Below are positions 2,701 to 27,473 of a stretch of 28,180 nucleotides of DNA, piece after piece. The stretch's first letter is position 1; every line of letters starts with the position of its first letter. The stretch comes from a virus, in IMG/VR virus record IMGVR_UViG_3300037963_001143, positions 1-28,180 of that record; one strand, written 5' to 3'. The position numbers and the translations under genes were made by a program. Under the pieces are notes generated by a model that was not told the DNA's origin, did not search any database, and saw nothing but the letters and a program-made list of their open reading frames with translations.

Positions 2701-3048
2701 ATGCAGGATAGAACAGAAAAAGGTAAACTAGCTATGTTAGAAGCGTTAGAGCAAACGCTGGGCGTAGTTACTACTGCGGCAAAAATGGTAGGTATAGACA
2801 GGGTAACACATTACAGGTGGTTAGAAGAAGACGAAGACTATAAGACTGCAGTAAAAAGTATAGACGACGTAGCTATAGACTTTGCAGAAAGCCAGCTACA
2901 TAAGCAGATTAAAAAAGGTAGCACTTCGGCTACTGTATTTTACCTAAAGACAAAAGGTAAGAAGCGCGGTTATGTAGAACGCCAAGAACACGAACTAAGC
3001 GGCGGTGCTAGACCTATTAACATACAAATAGATATTGACGAAGACTAG
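2701..3048 (+). CDS. Terminase small subunit
   Basis: A 115-residue DNA-binding protein directly upstream of the large terminase. Residues about 8-45 form a helix-turn-helix: MLEALEQTLGVVTTAAKMVG then IDRVTHYRWLEED, the pattern seen in the N-terminal domain of phage small terminases and related HTH proteins. The middle (VAIDFAESQLHKQIKKGSTS, then ATVFYLKTKGKKRGY) matches the oligomerisation/core region of this family. It recognises the packaging site and hands DNA to the large subunit. Its 3' end overlaps the large subunit gene by 14 bases. Confidence 0.85.
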   Translation: MQDRTEKGKLAMLEALEQTLGVVTTAAKMVGIDRVTHYRWLEEDEDYKTAVKSIDDVAIDFAESQLHKQIKKGSTSATVFYLKTKGKKRGYVERQEHELSGGARPINIQIDIDED

Positions 3049-4342
3049 GCTAACAAAAAAGCAAGGACAAGCGCTAAAGTACTTACACGATAAGACTACT
3101 ACAGAAGTACTATTCGGCGGTTCTGCAGGTGGCGGTAAGTCTTACTTAGGTAGCGTATGGCTTATATACCTTTGCACTAGCTACGACGGTATACGCTGTT
3201 TAATGGGTAGGAGCAAGCTAGACAACCTAAAGAAAACAACGCTTAACACTTTCTTTGACGTATGCAAAGAATTTAAACTAATAGCAGGCGTAGACTACAC
3301 CTATAACGCACAAAGCAATATAATAAAGTTCAATAACGGTAGCGAAATAATACTTAAAGACCTTTTTCAGTACCCTAGCGATCGTAACTTTGATAGCTTA
3401 GGTAGTTTAGAAATTACTGCAGCTTTTATAGACGAAGCTAACCAAGTAACAGAAAAGGCAAAACAAATAGTAAGCAGTAGGATACGTTACAAGCTAGACG
3501 AATATAACTTAACACCTAAACTACTACTAACCTGTAACCCTGCTAAGAACTGGGTGTATAGTAACTTCTACAAGCCACAAAGAGAAAACAGGCTACCAGA
3601 ATACAGAAAGTTTATACAAGCCTTAGTAGACGATAATAAGCATATATCTAAACACTATAAACAGCAACTGCTAAAGCTAGACGAAATAAGTAAGCAAAGG
3701 CTTTTATATGGTAACTGGGAATACGACGACAGCGAAGACAAGCTAATAAACTACAACGCTATACTATCTGCGTTTGAACTAGACAATACACCTACAGGCG
3801 ATAAGTATATAAGCGCAGATATAGCGCGCTATGGTAAAGACAAAACCTGTATAATACTTTGGAATGGTTTACGTGCTGAACAATTTGTGGTTATAGACAA
3901 AAATAGCGTAACAGAAGCCGCAGAAGCTATACGAAAACTACAGCAAGCTAACGCAGTTCCACTACAAAACATAATAGTAGACGACGACGGCGTAGGTGGT
4001 GGCGTTACTGATATATTGCGCTGTAAGGCGTTTAGGAACAATTCTAAGGCACTTAAAGGCGAAAACTATATAAACTTAAAGACGCAATGCTATTATGCGC
4101 TTAGCGACGCTGTAAATAAGTCGCAGGTATATATAAGCACTAATAACATAGCATACAAGAATTTTATAGTACAAGAATTAGAGCAGGTAAGGCGTAAGAA
4201 CTTCGACAAGGACACAAAGCTACAGCTAATAAGTAAAGACGAAGTAAAAGCAGCTATAGGCAGGTCGCCAGACTTTAGCGACGCTTTAGCTATGCGTATG
4301 TACTACGAATTAAGACCGCAGGGTAAGTACTATGTGCAATAA
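3035..4342 (+). CDS. terL: Terminase large subunit (ATPase and nuclease)
   Basis: A 435-residue DNA-packaging motor. The ATPase domain has Walker A GGSAGGGKS at residues 28-36, Walker B AAFIDEAN with D133/E134, and the coupling motif LLTCNPAKNW. The C-terminal RNase-H-like nuclease shows its acidic residues in SADIARYGKDKT (D262), IIVDDDGVGGG (D316-318) and DFSDALAM (D413/D416). It docks on the portal, translocates DNA and cuts concatemers. The apparent start is TTG at 3035, inside the small subunit gene; I see no better ATG before Walker A. A stem-loop follows 4 bases after the stop, so the upstream transcription unit probably ends here. Confidence 0.97.
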   Translation: MTKTRLTKKQGQALKYLHDKTTTEVLFGGSAGGGKSYLGSVWLIYLCTSYDGIRCLMGRSKLDNLKKTTLNTFFDVCKEFKLIAGVDYTYNAQSNIIKFNNGSEIILKDLFQYPSDRNFDSLGSLEITAAFIDEANQVTEKAKQIVSSRIRYKLDEYNLTPKLLLTCNPAKNWVYSNFYKPQRENRLPEYRKFIQALVDDNKHISKHYKQQLLKLDEISKQRLLYGNWEYDDSEDKLINYNAILSAFELDNTPTGDKYISADIARYGKDKTCIILWNGLRAEQFVVIDKNSVTEAAEAIRKLQQANAVPLQNIIVDDDGVGGGVTDILRCKAFRNNSKALKGENYINLKTQCYYALSDAVNKSQVYISTNNIAYKNFIVQELEQVRRKNFDKDTKLQLISKDEVKAAIGRSPDFSDALAMRMYYELRPQGKYYVQ

Positions 4343-4346
4343 AAAA

Positions 4347-4370
4347 AAGGGTAGCTTTTATACTACCCTT
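4347..4370 (+). terminator. Stem-loop after terL
   Basis: AAGGGTAG (4347-4354) pairs with CTACCCTT (4363-4370), a perfect 8-bp stem around an 8-base loop. It starts 4 bases after the terL stop and precedes the late motif at 4443. The + strand lacks a clear U-tract, but the A-run at 4341-4348 would give one on the opposite strand, so it may act in either direction or as an RNA 3' stabiliser. Confidence 0.6.
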
Positions 4371-4442
4371 CCAAAAACAATGAATAGCCTAAAGGAAAGG
4401 CTAGCTAAAATATGGAAGCGCAATATACTCAAAATTGAATTT

Positions 4443-4456: not shown

Positions 4457-5104
4457 ATGGAATTAGTTATTAACAACGAAACGTACTATATACCTAACAA
4501 ATGGAACGAAGTAAGTTTAGGCTGCTATATGCGCTTTATGGAAGCGTATAACGAAGAAGACACAGACTTACAAAAGGAAATAGTACTACTTTCTAGTTTT
4601 ACAGGCGCACCTATAGAAAAGCTAGGTAACATAAAGAAGAAAATGTTAGACCAAGCAGTAGAACACTTAGCTAAACTAATGGATACAAAGGTAACGGAAG
4701 ACGTTAACCTAATTATAGAAATAGACGACGTGGAATACGGCTTGCACCCAGACTTACATAACTTAAAGCTAAAGGAGTTTGTAGATCTAGACAATAAGCT
4801 AGCCGAAGGCTGGGAAAATATGGACGGAGTAATGGCTATTTTATATAGACCTGTAGTAAGTCGTAAAAAGGATAAATACAAAATAGAGGAATACGACTAT
4901 ACAACTGCTAAAAAGCGCGCAGAACTATTTAAGGAAAATTTAAGCGTAGAAACGGTTAACGCGGCTGCGGCTTTTTTTTTAGCTATAGGAATAGACTACA
5001 CGAAAATTACGCAGGTATATTCAAAGCTGAACAGGAAGACGAGGCGAAAACTTACAAAACAGAAGAAGAATTATTTAACGAAAGGTACGGCTGGTACGCT
5101 ATAA
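4457..5104 (+). CDS. Tail assembly chaperone-like protein, zero-frame product
   Basis: A 215-residue, helical, acidic protein heading the tail block. No motif identifies it. The case for a tail assembly chaperone (lambda gpG-like) is its position upstream of the tail proteins and tape measure, and a T9-A run at residues 172-175 that contains the classical -1 slippery heptamer T TTT TTA in the correct phase. After that site the zero frame encodes only a Lys/Arg/Thr-rich end, while the -1 frame continues with well-composed protein up to the next gene. The first 170 residues alternate short strands and helices. The gene is preceded by a late motif touching its ATG. Unlike lambda, it is separated from the tape measure by about 6 kb. 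Confidence 0.55.
   Translation: MELVINNETYYIPNKWNEVSLGCYMRFMEAYNEEDTDLQKEIVLLSSFTGAPIEKLGNIKKKMLDQAVEHLAKLMDTKVTEDVNLIIEIDDVEYGLHPDLHNLKLKEFVDLDNKLAEGWENMDGVMAILYRPVVSRKKDKYKIEEYDYTTAKKRAELFKENLSVETVNAAAAFFLAIGIDYTKITQVYSKLNRKTRRKLTKQKKNYLTKGTAGTL
4975..4981 (+). promoter_or_regulatory. Candidate -1 programmed ribosomal frameshift site
   Basis: The zero-frame codons are GCT TTT TTT TTA GCT, so the heptamer T TTT TTA sits exactly as X XXY YYZ, the same type as the HIV-1 gag-pol site. A slip of -1 opens a frame of 82 further codons ending at 5227-5229 in an ATGA overlap with the next gene. I did not identify a clear downstream stimulatory structure. A sequencing error in the T9 homopolymer is the main alternative. 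Confidence 0.6.
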
Positions 5105-5229
5105 TATACAACCTAGCAAACGGCGACCTATTAAAGTTCGACGAAGTGCTAGAAAGAACAGTAGACGAATGCTTTAATTTTATTATGTACCAAACAGACT
5201 TAGCACACATAGAAAATAGTAGAAAATGA
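4981..5229 (+). CDS. -1 frame extension of the chaperone-like protein (gpT-like part)
   Basis: This frame has no plausible own start but is open from the slippery site to a TGA at 5227-5229. It encodes 82 residues after the slip, giving a fusion of about 257 residues (175 + 82). The sequence is ordinary folded-protein material: YGWYAIIYNLANGDLLKFDE, then VLERTVDECFNFIMYQTDLA. The W..I..LA.GD...F/D.V pattern followed by a helical end resembles C-terminal parts of tail chaperone fusions. The stop forms ATGA with the start of the next gene, a coupling seen throughout this genome, which argues that ribosomes really reach it. Known GT-type fusions bind the tape measure; that role here is inferred. 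Confidence 0.6.
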   Translation, partial: SYRNRLHENYAGIFKAEQEDEAKTYKTEEELFNERYGWYAIIYNLANGDLLKFDEVLERTVDECFNFIMYQTDLAHIENSRK

Positions 5230-5726
5230 TATTAGACAATAACCAGATAAGCAGTTTAGGTATAAAGTATATATACAATAGACTAAGGCAAACTGCAGAT
5301 ACTGTAAGTAGTCAAGGCGCACAGCATATACGTAAGGTAACGGTAGGCGATATTTTCGAAGTAGAAGCAAAAGCTAAAGACTACCCACTACTACACATAG
5401 CTACAGAAAGCGCAGCAATAGATACAGGTAGGGTAGTATATAGTTTCCAGCTTATACTAATGGACTTAGTAAGTAAAGACGAAAGCAACGAAGAAGACGT
5501 GTTAAACGACACTTTAGAAACGTTAAAGCACTTTTTAGCATATTTAAGAATGGGTGTTACAACCTACGGACAAACGCCAAAACCAGAAGACGCGGCTAAT
5601 ATGATAAGGCTACAAGAAAGCATAAGCTGCGAACCTTTTACAGAACGTTTTGACAACGAAGTAGCAGGCTGGACGGCTAACATACAAATAGAAGTTATGT
5701 ACGACTTCGACTACTGCAACGCTTAA
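5226..5726 (+). CDS. Probable tail completion/terminator-type virion protein
   Basis: A 166-residue protein, starting in ATGA overlap with the -1 frame of the chaperone gene. It has the pattern VVYSFQLILMDLV, then EEDVLNDTLETLKHFLAYLR (residues about 68-110), then EVAGWTANIQIEVMYDFDYC at the end, which I associate with minor tail or tail-terminator proteins of Bacteroidota phages: a beta sheet, a helix with alternating acidic residues, and a closing beta strand. Its place in the tail block fits. I cannot separate tail terminator from other completion proteins. Confidence 0.5.
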   Translation: MILDNNQISSLGIKYIYNRLRQTADTVSSQGAQHIRKVTVGDIFEVEAKAKDYPLLHIATESAAIDTGRVVYSFQLILMDLVSKDESNEEDVLNDTLETLKHFLAYLRMGVTTYGQTPKPEDAANMIRLQESISCEPFTERFDNEVAGWTANIQIEVMYDFDYCNA

Positions 5727-11184: not shown

Positions 11185-11342
11185 TGAAACGTAAGCAGCA
11201 TATAAAATTTAAGCTACAGGCGGATATGATACAGACAGGCTTTCAAGCCTTTAAAGAAGTACTACCTGCTATAACAAAATACAAGCTAAAAACAAAGACT
11301 AACGAATTTATACTAGGTAAATGGCACAACGCGAAGAAATAA
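11184..11342 (+). CDS. 52-residue basic protein upstream of the tape measure
   Basis: A short frame starting in a TAATG overlap with the previous stop and ending 22 bases into the tape-measure gene. It encodes a 52-residue Lys-rich helical peptide containing MIQTGFQAFKEVLPAITKYK and then TNEFILGKWH. The overlaps at both ends and the genome-typical codons support translation. Short genes right before the tape measure are common in siphophages; some are chaperone parts. Function unknown. Confidence 0.55.
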   Translation: MKRKQHIKFKLQADMIQTGFQAFKEVLPAITKYKLKTKTNEFILGKWHNAKK

Positions 11343-12997
11343 TTTTTAATCTAAAAATGACTTCTGCAGAAGCAGAAAAAAGTTTAGAAAAAGTAAAAAA
11401 GAATATATCTGACACTAACAAGGAAGTTAAAGATAGTATAAACAACTTTGGTATTTTTGGCGTAACTGTAGGCGACGTTAAAAATAAGTTTAACGAGTTA
11501 AAGGGTATAGCGTCTAAATCTTTATCTATAATAAAACAACAAGGACAACAAGCTGCTTTAGGATTACGTCTTATGTTTGGCGGTAAAATGAAAATGGGCG
11601 CAAGTTCTTTGTTTAAAACTATTAAAGTAGGTATTGCTTCTACAGGTATAGGTTTGTTAATAGTAGCTATAGGTTCTTTAGTAACATATCTAACACAGAC
11701 TAAAAAAGGTGCTGAACTTTTAGAAGTAGCGTTTAGGACTGTAGGCGCTGCTATTTCTGTTATTACAGATCGTATAAGCAGTATAGGTAGCGCTATAGTT
11801 AAAGTGTTTAAAGGCGATTTTAAAGGCGCTGCAGAAGACGCTAAAAAAGCAGTAACAGGTTTAGGCGACGAAATACGTAAAGAAGTTAAGGCTATGAATG
11901 AACTAGCAAAAGCTAGCATAGCGTTAAGAGATAGCCAGCGCGAACTAAACGTAGAAACAGCTAGACGTAGGGCGGAACTAGAAGCGTTAAAGTTAATAGC
12001 AGAAGACACTACGAAAACAGACAAAGAAAGGTTAGAAGCTGCTAGAGCTGCTATGGAGTTAGAAACAACTTTAGTAGAAAAACGCGTAGCTAACGCAGCC
12101 GAAGCGGTTAGAATACTAAAAGAAGAACTAGGCACTAGAGAGGCAACGGCAGACGAACTAGACGAACTAGCGCAGCTAGAGATAGATTTGTTTAACATAA
12201 AAGCAGAAAGTACTACAAAGCAAATAGAGTTAAACAATAAGATAAACAGTATAGAGAAAGAAGCAGAAGCTAGAAGACTACAAGCTATAAAAGACGAAGA
12301 ACAGGCTAGAAAAGAAGCTGCAGAAGCTAGGGCGAAAGATTTTGAAGAAGCAGAAAAGCTACAAGAAGAACTATTTAAGGCAGAAGAAGAACGCGTTAAG
12401 AAAGAAAAAGAACTAGCTAAACAAGCAGCTTTAGATAAAATAGCACAAGACAAAGCCGTAGCAGATAGTAAAATAGCTGTTAGCAGCGCAGCGCTAGGCG
12501 CAGTAGCGGATATATTTGGAAGGGAAAGCCAAGCAGGTAAAGCCGCCGCAGTAGCACAGGCTACTATTAACACGTACCAAGCGGCTAACAACGCACTAGC
12601 TAATACGCCAGCGCCGCCACCTTTCCCTTTTATAGCCGCAGGTGTAGCCTTAGCCGCAGGTTTTCAAAACATAAATAAGATACTATCTACACCTATAGAA
12701 AATAAGTTTGCTAACGGTGGTATAGTCGGCGGTTTTGGTACTGGCAGAAGTGATAGCGTACCTGCTAGACTATCAAAAGGAGAAAGCGTAATAAACGCAC
12801 GTTCTACTAGAATGTTTAGACCAGTACTAAGCGCTATAAATGAAGCTGGAGGCGGTCGTGGTTTTGCAGACGGAGGAACACTAGACGAAGGTTTAGGCGG
12901 TATAACTACAGGAACAGTAAAAGCGTATGTAGTCAGCGACGAAATGACTAATAACCAAGAAAGGTTAGCTAAAATTAGAAGAAAAGCAACAATTTAA
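11321..12997 (+). CDS. Tape measure protein
   Basis: A 558-residue protein with the organisation of a tail tape measure: a hydrophobic segment at about residues 104-126 (GIASTGIGLLIVAIGSLVTY), a long Ala/Glu/Lys-rich coiled-coil region at about 150-390, a second hydrophobic Ala-rich part, and a Gly-rich C-terminus (FANGGIVGGFGTG, then RLSKGESVINARSTRMFRPV and FADGGTL) of the kind seen at the end of many tape measures. It sets tail length and is ejected with the DNA. Using the usual 0.15 nm per helical residue, it would imply a tail of about 80 nm, which is inference. It is short for a siphovirus and lacks obvious lytic transglycosylase or peptidase domains. Confidence 0.85.
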   Translation: MAQREEIIFNLKMTSAEAEKSLEKVKKNISDTNKEVKDSINNFGIFGVTVGDVKNKFNELKGIASKSLSIIKQQGQQAALGLRLMFGGKMKMGASSLFKTIKVGIASTGIGLLIVAIGSLVTYLTQTKKGAELLEVAFRTVGAAISVITDRISSIGSAIVKVFKGDFKGAAEDAKKAVTGLGDEIRKEVKAMNELAKASIALRDSQRELNVETARRRAELEALKLIAEDTTKTDKERLEAARAAMELETTLVEKRVANAAEAVRILKEELGTREATADELDELAQLEIDLFNIKAESTTKQIELNNKINSIEKEAEARRLQAIKDEEQARKEAAEARAKDFEEAEKLQEELFKAEEERVKKEKELAKQAALDKIAQDKAVADSKIAVSSAALGAVADIFGRESQAGKAAAVAQATINTYQAANNALANTPAPPPFPFIAAGVALAAGFQNINKILSTPIENKFANGGIVGGFGTGRSDSVPARLSKGESVINARSTRMFRPVLSAINEAGGGRGFADGGTLDEGLGGITTGTVKAYVVSDEMTNNQERLAKIRRKATI

Positions 12998-13009: not shown

Positions 13010-14272
13010 ATGCCTTGTAAACAATGCGAAAACGGTAAATACAGGTTCGGCGACGGTAACTGCAAATATGAAACATTAGCAGAATGTGAAGCAGCGCACC
13101 AAACGTACGACATAGTAGAACTAGTTATAGACGACAATAACGAAGCAATAGCCATAGACGCTATAAGCCTAGTTACTAACCCTGCGATAGAAGTAAACGC
13201 GGTTTTTTTCAATAAAGAAAATAACTTAACACTAGCAAAGATAGACGAAGAAAAGCGTATGCTAGTAAGCCCTGCGCTTATACCATATAAGCAAATATAT
13301 AGATATAACGCAGACACAGATAAGCACTACTACGTATACTTTACTGCGGAAACGGTACGTAAGTCTGCAGAAGCCTTTATTAAGCACCACAACACTAATA
13401 ACGCTACAATACAGCACGAATACAAAGTAACAGGCGTAAGCGTTATAGAAAGCTGGATAAGCGAAAGCGAAACAAAAGACAAAAGCAACTTATACGGCTA
13501 CGAATTGCCTAAAGGTACTTGGTTTGTATCTATGCGTATAGAAAACGACGAAGTATGGCAGCAAATAAAAAGCGGCGAACTAAAAGGCTTGTCTATAGAA
13601 GGCTACTTTGTTAACGCTGCGGAAAAAATGGCTAAAGTAGGTAGTATGGTAGTAGACAATATGGACTTACCTTTATACGACAACGAAGAAGAAGCGTTAG
13701 CAGTAGCTAAAGAAATGGGCTGCGAAGGAGTACACGAACACACGCTAGACGGTAAGACTGTATATATGCCTTGCGCAGATCACGATATAATTAGCGCACT
13801 ATCAGAAATATTAAATTTAGATTGTAATTGCTTAGATACAGAGTTAATAACACCTAACCCATGCCAAAGCGGATATGAGCCATACGGTCACAAAATTAAA
13901 GATGGTAAAAAAGTACCTAACTGTGTGCCTATAAAAGCTAAAAAAAAAAGTAAGCTAGAAAGCTATACAGACTACCCACAGGCGGCAACTAATAACGCTA
14001 AAAGGGCTATAAAATGGAAGGAAGAAAACGGCACCACTTGCGGCACACGTGTAGGCTGGACTAGGGCTAGACAGTTAGCAGACAGAAAGCCTATAAGTCG
14101 CGATACTATAGCGCGTATGGCTAGTTTTAAGCGACACCAACAAAATAAGGACGTACCTTATAGCGAAGGCTGCGGCGGTCTAATGTGGGATGCTTGGGGC
14201 GGTTCTAGCGGCGTTAACTGGGCTATAAGCAAACTAAAAGAAATAGACAGCGAAAATAAAACAAACGAATAA
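13010..14272 (+). CDS. Prohead maturation protease, XkdF-type, with extra N- and C-terminal domains
   Basis: A 420-residue protein. Residues about 85-205 match the XkdF-type phage serine protease: LIPYKQIYRYNADTDKHYYV, then TIQHEYKVTGVSVIESWI with candidate catalytic H136, and GELKGLSIEGYF with candidate nucleophile S195. It would cleave scaffold and capsid during head maturation. The N-terminus has a cysteine cluster (CKQCENG... GNCKYETLAEC). The C-terminus (about 320-420) is a separate domain with NAKRAIKWKEENG, CGTRVGWTRARQLADRKPIS, TIARMASFKRHQ and a Gly/Trp-rich end; I have seen similar tails on phage head proteins but cannot give a function. The gene sits immediately before scaffold and capsid, as expected. 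Confidence 0.8.
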   Translation: MPCKQCENGKYRFGDGNCKYETLAECEAAHQTYDIVELVIDDNNEAIAIDAISLVTNPAIEVNAVFFNKENNLTLAKIDEEKRMLVSPALIPYKQIYRYNADTDKHYYVYFTAETVRKSAEAFIKHHNTNNATIQHEYKVTGVSVIESWISESETKDKSNLYGYELPKGTWFVSMRIENDEVWQQIKSGELKGLSIEGYFVNAAEKMAKVGSMVVDNMDLPLYDNEEEALAVAKEMGCEGVHEHTLDGKTVYMPCADHDIISALSEILNLDCNCLDTELITPNPCQSGYEPYGHKIKDGKKVPNCVPIKAKKKSKLESYTDYPQAATNNAKRAIKWKEENGTTCGTRVGWTRARQLADRKPISRDTIARMASFKRHQQNKDVPYSEGCGGLMWDAWGGSSGVNWAISKLKEIDSENKTNE

Positions 14273-21246: not shown

Positions 21247-21455
21247 TGGAAGAAGTATTAAAATTAGTAGAAACGTACGGCATAACGTTAGTTTTGTTGT
21301 TAGGTAGCTGTTACGCACTTTACAAGTTTTTCGTTTTTTCTATATACGAAGTTAAAGGTCAGTTTTCAAAATACCACGAAAATAACGCTAAAGATATGCA
21401 GTATATCAAAAGCAAAATAGATACTATTTTAGAATTTATTAAAGAAAAAAAGTAA
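21246..21455 (+). CDS. Holin-like or membrane-anchored small protein
   Basis: A 69-residue protein with a single hydrophobic segment at about 12-34 (GITLVLLLGSCYALYKFFVF) followed by a charged helical tail ending FIKEKK. The layout resembles small phage holins with an N-terminal span and a charged cytoplasmic tail. It directly precedes the endolysin gene with a TAATG junction, which supports a role in lysis. A Rz-like role is also possible. Confidence 0.55.
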   Translation: MEEVLKLVETYGITLVLLLGSCYALYKFFVFSIYEVKGQFSKYHENNAKDMQYIKSKIDTILEFIKEKK

Positions 21456-21829
21456 TGCTTAACTACTTTAATTTTGAGGAGTTCGACAGCCCAGACGAAA
21501 TAGGTAGCGGACTACCAAAAACGCAAGGCGGTAAAATGGACTTAGGCTTTTTACATAAGCTAGACGAAGCGCGTATGTTAGCGGACACGCCCTTTAGAAT
21601 TACAAGCGGTTATAGAACAACTGAACACAACGCAAAGGTCGGCGGACGCGTAGGCAGTAGCCACTTAAAAGGCTGCGCTGTAGACATAGCGGTAAACAAT
21701 AGCGCACAGCGTAGCGCAATAATCCAGGGCTTAGTTAAAGCAGGCTTTACGCGTATAGGTATAGCTAAGACTTTTATACACGCAGACACAGACGAAAATA
21801 AACCAAGCGCGATATGGCTTTACCAATAG
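21455..21829 (+). CDS. Endolysin, M15-type peptidase
   Basis: A 124-residue zinc peptidase of the M15 (VanY/D-Ala-D-Ala carboxypeptidase-like) group. Metal ligands and motifs visible are FRITSGYRTTEHN (47-59), S-x-H-x2-G-x-A-x-D as SSHLKGCAVD (H70, D77) and the closing H in FIHAD (H109). It cuts the peptide stems of peptidoglycan at lysis. The length equals a single catalytic domain with no separate wall-binding domain and no signal peptide, so it depends on a holin for release. It overlaps the 3TM holin gene. Confidence 0.9.
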   Translation: MLNYFNFEEFDSPDEIGSGLPKTQGGKMDLGFLHKLDEARMLADTPFRITSGYRTTEHNAKVGGRVGSSHLKGCAVDIAVNNSAQRSAIIQGLVKAGFTRIGIAKTFIHADTDENKPSAIWLYQ

Positions 21830-25359: not shown

Positions 25360-25930
25360 ATTACATAGGAAAATACTTGATAACGGCGTATTTGCAGACG
25401 CTGAATTATTAAAGGTTTTTGTATGGTGTATACTAAAAGCTAACACTACGCCTAACATAGTATACGGTCGCAAAGTAGACGTAGGGCAATTTATTACAGG
25501 ACGTGTAAGCGCAGCCGAAGAACTACGGCTAAAACCTAGTACAGTATATAAGCGTATGCAGGTACTAAAGAAGCAAGGCTACATAGATATAGACAGCAAT
25601 ACTAAAAACAGCTTAATAACTGTAAGTAAGTATAAGTCTTACCAACTAGACGAAAAGCCTAAAAAACGCGATCTAGAAGCCGTTTACAAGCGTTTTAGCG
25701 ACGAAGTATATAGCTACGACTATAGCGCAGAAATGCAGGCAGAATTTATAGACTACTGGACAGAACCTAACAGAAGTAAAACAAAGCTACGCTACGAGTT
25801 AGAAAAGACTTTCGATATAGCTAGACGTTTAAAGACTTGGGCAAAGCGCCAGAAGCAATACACAAAAACAGAAAAAAAGAATATTTTAGACACTTGGCAG
25901 GAAGCTAGAAATATAGTTAACAATGGATAA
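25343..25930 (+). CDS. Replication initiator-like protein, winged helix (DnaD/gpO-like)
   Basis: A 195-residue protein. The N-terminus MKGYIKLHRKILDNGVFADA ELLKVFVWCILKANTTP is the pattern of the N-terminal winged-helix domain of phage replisome organisers (KLYRKIxxNxxF ... LKxWxxxLxxAN). It continues with a winged-helix HTH, FITGRVSAAEELRLKPSTVY, KRMQVLKKQGYIDI, at about residues 50-90. The C-terminal part (135-190) is helical (YELEKTFDIARRLKTWAKRQ). It probably binds the phage origin and loads the host helicase. No phage polymerase, primase or helicase is present, so host enzymes must be used. Confidence 0.75.
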   Translation: MKGYIKLHRKILDNGVFADAELLKVFVWCILKANTTPNIVYGRKVDVGQFITGRVSAAEELRLKPSTVYKRMQVLKKQGYIDIDSNTKNSLITVSKYKSYQLDEKPKKRDLEAVYKRFSDEVYSYDYSAEMQAEFIDYWTEPNRSKTKLRYELEKTFDIARRLKTWAKRQKQYTKTEKKNILDTWQEARNIVNNG

Positions 25931-26600
25931 AATGAAAATACTAAACTTATACGCTTGTCTAGGTGGTAATCGTTACAAGTGGGACGAAGTAGCCAAAGAA
26001 GCTGGTATAGAAATAGAGGTAACTGCAGTAGAACTAGACGAAGAAGCTGCTAAATTGTACCAAGAACGTTTCCCTGCAGACACAGTAATAGTAACAGATG
26101 CGCACGAATACTTACTAGACCACTACAAAGAATTTGATTTTATATGGAGTAGTCCACCTTGCCCTACACATAGTAGAATAAACATAAGTCAATATACAAG
26201 AGAAAGCTGGAAACCTAAATACCCAGAAATGAAACTTTACGAAGAAGTAATATTTTTACAACACTACTACAAAGGTAAATTTTGCATAGAAAATGTTATA
26301 CCTTTTTACGAACCACTTGTACCAGCACACAAAAGACACAGGCACTTATATTGGACTAACTTTAATTTGCCTAATAAATTAAGCGAAAGAAAAAACCCTG
26401 ATTTGGCAAGAACTAGAAATGTAGTAAAACAATTAAGCAAATTTCACGACTACGACTTTAGCAAATATAAGGGTAAGCAGTCAGTACGTAAAATGGCACG
26501 TAATTTAGTAGACTATGAAGCTGGGCGCACAATATTTGAAACAGTACTAGGAATTACAAAAAAAGCAAATCAAAAACAAATAGATATATTTGACAGCTAA
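25923..26600 (+). CDS. DNA cytosine-5 methyltransferase
   Basis: A 225-residue C5 methyltransferase. Motif I is NLYACLGGNRYKWDEVA (residues 8-24), the acidic motif II EL is in AVELDEEAA, motif IV with the catalytic Cys is SSPPCPTHSR (C80), motif VI is ENV (123-125), a HKRHRHLYW segment takes the place of motif VIII, and motif X resembles VRKMARNLVDYEAG. The enzyme is short compared with the usual 320-400 residues, leaving a very small target-recognition region. No cognate endonuclease is adjacent. Codons from about 26140 onward are less typical of the genome than those before, hinting at a mosaic origin. Confidence 0.85.
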   Translation: MDKMKILNLYACLGGNRYKWDEVAKEAGIEIEVTAVELDEEAAKLYQERFPADTVIVTDAHEYLLDHYKEFDFIWSSPPCPTHSRINISQYTRESWKPKYPEMKLYEEVIFLQHYYKGKFCIENVIPFYEPLVPAHKRHRHLYWTNFNLPNKLSERKNPDLARTRNVVKQLSKFHDYDFSKYKGKQSVRKMARNLVDYEAGRTIFETVLGITKKANQKQIDIFDS

Positions 26601-26604
26601 AACA

Positions 26605-27000
26605 ATGGATAAGAGTAAGCAAATATGGTATCGGTTTAACAAAGACCAGAAGCAACTAAAAACAGACTGCGTAGACTTGGTTAGCAAGTGCTACTTAATG
26701 CTAGGGCAAAAGCCAGAAACACAGCAAGTAGTAATAATGGCGCAGTTACTATACGACGACTTAATAAATAGTTACAGCCGCCTTACTATGGACGAAGTAA
26801 CCTTTGCTTTTGAACAAGGTGTAAGACACAGCGAAAACGGCGCTTTTGTAAACGTTCGTAACTTTAACTTATGGATCAAAGAATACAGACAAAAAGCACA
26901 GCTTAATAAACAGAAAGGTATAATAACCGACTATCAACACCATAAGCAAAACCAAAAAGCAATAGCTAATACTATCAAGAAAGCTAAACATATAAAATGA
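26605..27000 (+). CDS. Replication accessory/helicase-loader-like protein
   Basis: A 131-residue helical protein. The central part (VVIMAQLLYDDLINSYSRLT MDEVTFAFEQGVRHSENGAF VNVRNFNLWIKEY) resembles N-terminal regions of phage P-like/DnaC-like loader or replication accessory proteins, in which a helical domain is followed by TFxxWIxxY. The C-terminus is basic. The ATG at 26605 follows AACA in the usual A-rich context; an upstream TTG at 26590 would lie in the methyltransferase gene. Role inferred from pattern and position after the replication initiator. Confidence 0.45.
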   Translation: MDKSKQIWYRFNKDQKQLKTDCVDLVSKCYLMLGQKPETQQVVIMAQLLYDDLINSYSRLTMDEVTFAFEQGVRHSENGAFVNVRNFNLWIKEYRQKAQLNKQKGIITDYQHHKQNQKAIANTIKKAKHIK

Positions 27001-27473
27001 ATACAAATTACGAAACTACTATTAGTAAGGAAGAATGGTATACACCTACACGTATTATAGATGCACTTGGAATATTTGACCTTGATCCTTGCAGCCCAAA
27101 TAAACCGTTTAATAAAATAGCTAATAATATTTTTACTAAAAAAGATAATGGACTTCTAAAAGAATGGTATGGTAGCGTATACTGTAATCCGCCTTATGGA
27201 AAACAAACTAAATTATGGCTAAATAAATGTGCAAAGCATAATAATTGTATAGCTTTAGTTTTTGCTAGAACAGATACAAAAATGTTTTTTAGTGAAGTAT
27301 GGAACAAAGCAAGTGCAATATTTTTCATAAAAGGCAGGTTAAAATTTTTAAACGAAAATAACGTAAGCATAGGCAGCGCTGGCGCGCCTAGTGTTTTAAT
27401 AGCTTACGGAAAACAATATAAAAGGTTAGAAAATTTAGATAGAACTATACAAGGTAAATATATTAAACTATAA
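26997..27473 (+). CDS. Phage Dam-type DNA N6-adenine methyltransferase
   Basis: A 158-residue enzyme of the phage DNA N6-adenine-methyltransferase (Dam) family: EEWYTPTRIIDALGIFDLDP (residues 12-31), NNIFTKKDNGLLKEWYGSVY, the catalytic NPPYG (N64-G68), then a GRLKFLNE segment and a GSAGAPSVLIAYG end. This arrangement (EWxTP ... DP ... FTxxxDGL ... W ... NPPY) is the family signature. It methylates adenine, typically to protect phage DNA. Its codons are AT-rich (AAT, TTT, GAT) unlike the genome average, as in the other methyltransferases. It overlaps the previous gene as ATGA. Confidence 0.9.
   Translation: MNTNYETTISKEEWYTPTRIIDALGIFDLDPCSPNKPFNKIANNIFTKKDNGLLKEWYGSVYCNPPYGKQTKLWLNKCAKHNNCIALVFARTDTKMFFSEVWNKASAIFFIKGRLKFLNENNVSIGSAGAPSVLIAYGKQYKRLENLDRTIQGKYIKL

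Follow-up and report, generated by a model that had tools for sequence, protein, structure and literature searches.

The gene at position 4457 of the window, as we call the whole 28,180-base IMG/VR virus record (IMGVR_UViG_3300037963_001143) analyzed here, contains a run of nine T's (T9), behind which a second reading frame is open. This arrangement raises the question of whether one gene gives rise to two proteins, by what step the reading frame would be switched, and what the products do. A sequence-only reading had proposed products of 215 and about 257 residues, generated by a programmed -1 frameshift and acting as tail chaperones. The comparisons described below strongly support, at the level of sequence, a programmed -1-type frame switch with predicted products of 215 and 257 aa, and the gene probably encodes the two-product tail-assembly chaperone of a Bacteroidota siphophage, similar to lambda G/GT.

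Layout and setting of the locus

The run is the only T9 in the window. The slippery T run claimed for this gene was borne out, with T TTT TTT in frame and the heptamer named earlier, T TTT TTA, likewise present. The -1 frame contains no stop between 4960 and its terminal TGA, which overlaps the ATG of the next gene, in agreement with the earlier description of an open frame ending in ATGA. The predicted fusion consists of 257 aa (174 residues before the slip and 83 after it). No start was found near the beginning of the -1 frame in the window, where the earliest possible starts are a GTG and an ATG, 174 and 213 nt past the first T.

Table 1. Coordinates of the two-frame gene and its neighbors in the window
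Feature	Position	Strand	Remarks
Terminase large subunit (TerL)	3035..4342	+	Directly before gene 4457
Zero-frame gene (G-like short product, 215 aa)	4457..5104	+	N part is residues 1-174; stop at 5102-5104; homologues in all relatives; phrog_32199
T9, candidate slippage site	4972..4980	+	Zero-frame codons GCT TTT TTT TTA; in-frame heptamer T TTT TTT at 4972-4978
-1 part of predicted long product	4978..5229	+	83 residues after the slip, then TGA at 5227-5229
Overlap coding for both the zero-frame tail and the -1 domain	4979..5104	+	Both frames constrained
Next gene	5226..5726	+	Start overlaps the -1 stop (ATGA); follows the pair in relatives too
Tape measure protein, expected partner of short form	11321..12997	+	phrog_3336, E 6e-19

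The gene set of the window is of the siphophage type, with terminase subunits, portal, head protease, capsid-like protein and tape measure protein, and the order TerL, genes 4457, 5226, 6313, 6843 and 8264, and tape measure gene is largely kept among relatives. The sequence-only reading had correctly placed the gene directly behind TerL and some 6 kb ahead of the tape measure gene. A gene of the G/GT type is expected just upstream of the tape measure gene; here about 6 kb and several genes lie between, and the gene order is unusual for a tail chaperone. Between TerL and gene 4457, two hairpins were observed at 4345-4403 (z -2.96), with a loop and stem that vary among relatives, and the 40 bases preceding the ATG of gene 4457 are well conserved. 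Elsewhere in the window, an A10 run (13940-13949) lies inside the gene at 13010-14272, between the head-protease-like part and the C-terminal part; as a second slippage site it found no support, the sole relative spanning the site having no A run. By eye, three genes (57-686, 25923-26600 and 26997-27473) resemble DNA methyltransferases, and one (21455-21829) resembles a peptidase-type endolysin.

Two cultured phages of Nonlabens, P12024S and P12024L, carry a homologue immediately after the terminase gene, and it too has T9. In P12024S, the two frames are annotated as two hypothetical genes (P12024S_38 and P12024S_39), the -1 gene being given an internal ATG start. A homologue is also carried by two bacterial MAG contigs, one assigned to Bacteroidetes and one to Winogradskyella; therefore, the hosts are most likely Bacteroidota. 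A tblastn search of phages with the window's own two halves gave no match, and the Nonlabens phages were reached only with the N part of a distant clade. Flavobacterium phage 11b and Cellulophaga phage phi10:1 have a related TerL, but a portal gene lies behind it, while Polaribacter phage P12002L has an unnamed gene at the position behind TerL.

Conservation of the run and selection on both frames

The -1 frame alone, used as the query, retrieved 43 loci with identities down to 27%. A profile of the -1 frame reached at least 568 relatives, 80 of them retained, and a third clade yielded 303, 80 of which were likewise retained; the 192 loci analyzed form 52 clusters at 75% identity. Exactly nine T's, in the same relation to the two frames, were found in 190 of the 192 loci. 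The other two both have T10: in one (L105) the frame relation is kept, and in the other (L008) both frames are merged into one ORF of 257 aa. Among 63 loci reached through the zero-frame half of P12024S, some of them on contigs already counted elsewhere, 62 have T9 and one (L233) has T10. No run shorter than nine T's occurs in either set, and the heptamer T TTT TTT lies in the zero frame at every locus. Furthermore, in each of the 51 clusters for which a codon table was available, T occupies the three synonymous third positions of the slippery codons, corresponding to a log10 P of -36.8 if the clusters are taken as independent, which they are not fully. The conservation of T9 is thus far beyond chance. 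Natural T10 runs that keep the relation of zero and -1 frames were observed in L105 and L233, and ten T's therefore seem to be tolerated. The sequence-only reading had counted against itself any relatives with the two frames as separate genes or without the -1 frame; the relatives examined showed neither, and the run and both frames are conserved among them.

Selection was assessed as pN/pS from pairs at 72-95% identity, which are not independent, so that the values are descriptive. Upstream of the run, the zero frame alone is constrained (0.14, versus 2.31 for the -1 frame), and behind the zero-frame stop, the -1 frame alone is constrained (0.16, versus 1.24 for the zero frame). In the overlap, both frames are constrained, with values of 0.27 for the -1 frame and 0.66 for the zero frame against shadow-frame baselines of 1.24 and higher, and synonymous divergence in the -1 frame is about halved (0.30 versus 0.56). 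These data point to purifying selection on both frames within the overlap. Because the overlap constrains both frames, the zero-frame tail represents a real product end; described earlier as basic and of low complexity, it is not junk but is itself under selection.

Decoding at the run

Expression of the gene would mostly yield the short form of 215 aa, and at T9 a fraction would switch to the -1 frame, giving the 257-aa form with an extra helical domain. The same fusion results whether RNA polymerase slips, which would add one U to the nine U's, or the ribosome slips by -1 on U_UUU_UUU. A ribosomal shift had been assumed earlier; the in-frame heptamer that it calls for is present, but T9 fits transcriptional slippage about as well.

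U_UUU_UUU is a legitimate heptamer for ribosomal -1 slippage, and a downstream stimulatory RNA structure is usual at such sites, without being obligatory. The locus has the X XXY YYZ heptamer, as T TTT TTT; however, no RNA structure was detected on either side of the run across the 52 clusters (mean z about 0). Transcriptional slippage calls for a run of about nine or more A or T, and the runs here are T9 or T10. Nine is the run length of high-efficiency slippage by bacterial RNA polymerase, and nine-base runs are avoided in many genomes (PMC5009743; PMC1088944). Thermus thermophilus dnaX and other genes with nine-base transcriptional slippage generate two products from a run of nine (PMC5009743; PMC1088944); dnaX and the window gene share this run length and are not homologous, and in the window slippage is only a candidate. 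Elsewhere in the genes of these viruses, runs of at least seven T's occur at about half the expected frequency. Transcripts one T short would mostly stop within 2-8 codons.

On a supported tree, the run shifted register against the frame on at least two occasions, and its length was nine each time. The absence of RNA structure in the 52 clusters, the absence of any run under nine, although the heptamer would suffice, and the retention of nine T's through two register changes together lead us to lean toward slippage. This lean is only slight, because in the commoner register the residues conserved in both frames plus the ribosomal heptamer already yield nine T's, because the run could be shifted by an insertion paired with a deletion even if its length were not selected, and because the site of phage P2 is T rich and ribosomal. 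RNA polymerase slippage at T9 is the decoding step that we think likeliest, with our confidence in it evenly poised. Programmed -1 frameshifting by the ribosome alone on U_UUU_UUU, of the kind used for P2 E+E' and lambda G/GT, with the mRNA remaining at U9, is a serious contender that we regard as quite possible: the heptamer is in frame at every locus, P2 uses GGT TTT TTG, and the tail-chaperone switches known so far are mostly ribosomal (PMC5009743).

The T10 contig L008 was compared with a T9 contig, L009; the two are 99.73% identical over 4,072 bases, with a single gap, located in the run. Both begin 35-39 nt before the ATG, just inside the conserved leader behind the variable hairpin, and for this reason their starts do not show an RNA origin. 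As a hint of mixed run length the pair is only suggestive; if the datasets behind it are metatranscriptomes, it would be direct evidence of slippage.

Proposed function of the two predicted products and meaning of the switch

With good confidence, we infer production of both proteins and a role for them as tail chaperones. A chaperone function is plausible from the architecture, the genomic context and matches to tail-chaperone families that stay below threshold, rather than from established homology. As in lambda gpG/gpGT, one gene specifies a short form and a -1 fusion that shares its N part and adds a C-terminal domain, and a tape measure gene is present (PMC5009743). In contrast to lambda, the window has T9 as its site, about 125 nt are shared between the zero-frame tail and the -1 domain, and the gene follows TerL instead of adjoining the tape measure gene; the likeness is one of architecture. 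The second comparison is with P2 E/E+E' (PF10109, phrog_103, phrog_166), which has a T-rich -1 site, GGT TTT TTG. The P2 run has six T's and the window's nine, the window protein is longer, and P2 E adjoins the tape measure gene whereas the window gene does not.

Profile searches gave a significant match to phrog_32199, annotated as of unknown function, with E values of 2e-7 for the window protein, 2e-21 for a clade consensus and 9e-124 for P12024S_38. The latter and P12024S_39 constitute a direct homologue, with T9, an open -1 frame and the same position directly behind TerL, although identity to the window gene is about 30% and the frames are annotated there as separate hypothetical genes. 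The N-part consensus matched the tail-chaperone family phrog_166 at an E of about 0.001, below threshold, in the region that P2 gpE matches too (E 4e-7), and matched PF10109 (Phage_TAC_7) at an E of 0.06, below the curated cutoff. Profile-profile comparison (hhalign) gave no significant link to the P2 gpE family. Thus, the tail-chaperone identity proposed in the sequence-only reading is plausible in that the layout fits, while the homology behind it stays below threshold.

The natural single-ORF fusion of L008 was modeled with a mean pLDDT of 90.5. In this model, the shift point falls inside a long helix (residues 164-184), and the -1 part adds more helices; in the model of the window's short form, the body is the same and the tail is helical, with low confidence in the last residues. 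No solved structure was matched by sequence or, with Foldseek, in the PDB, and the few VIA-align rows, all with Z under 3, show neither a new nor a differing fold. Foldseek did match many unnamed viral models, including a P12024S protein. Two BFVD models, A0A6J5N0W0 (267 aa) and A0A516L611 (258 aa), align over the whole fusion model; such models spanning both halves may be natural fusions or single-ORF relatives, joined annotations, or run-length variants.

It is unlikely that the frame switch is real but yields two forms of a connector or of an assembly factor that is not a tail chaperone. The position directly behind TerL, the nonsignificant chaperone homology and the annotation of the matched families as of unknown function would suit such a protein, but the G/GT layout, with a shared N part and a frame-shifted C domain, argues for a chaperone, as do the weak chaperone matches in the same region as P2 gpE and the lack, among the listed ORFs, of a rival two-frame candidate close to the tape measure gene. 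Very improbable is synthesis of the -1 frame by internal initiation or translational coupling, with no fusion. Some relatives have an ATG or GTG in the -1 frame, 32 nt ahead of the run, and P12024S is annotated with its internal ATG start; however, no -1 start lies near the run in the window or in 94 of 191 loci, the start is not conserved whereas T9 is, and the run itself marks the beginning of the conserved -1 domain. Slightly less credible still is phase variation at the DNA level, in which run lengths would differ between genomes of one population and turn the long form on or off. The L008/L009 pair, 99.7% identical with its one gap in the run, is what such variation would produce, but T9 is present in 190 of 192 loci and both frames are under selection in T9 genomes. 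A sequencing or assembly error in one ordinary gene, homopolymers being error prone, is already refuted by the relatives, since T9 is shared by cultured isolates and by independent contigs from 52 clusters, and the zero-frame tail is under selection.

Our reading of the gene as a two-product chaperone has consequences for the wider group. A very large Bacteroidota siphophage group, most of it uncultured, may set its tail-chaperone ratio by RNA polymerase slippage at the conserved T9, not ribosomally, using a chaperone family without recognizable relatives; this we hold tentatively, at just short of an even chance. In the literature on tail-chaperone frameshifts in flavophages or Bacteroidetes and on transcriptional slippage, with few subscription journals covered and hence as weak evidence of absence, the T9 switch was not described. 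Two hypothetical genes of hundreds of environmental viruses and of the cultured Nonlabens phages become one testable two-product gene, and the annotation of such pairs is corrected. T9 behind TerL would serve as a marker for tail chaperones where homology search fails, and Nonlabens phage P12024S and its host provide a system for a direct test. If the switch is transcriptional, this would be the first tail-chaperone ratio known to us that is set by RNA polymerase.
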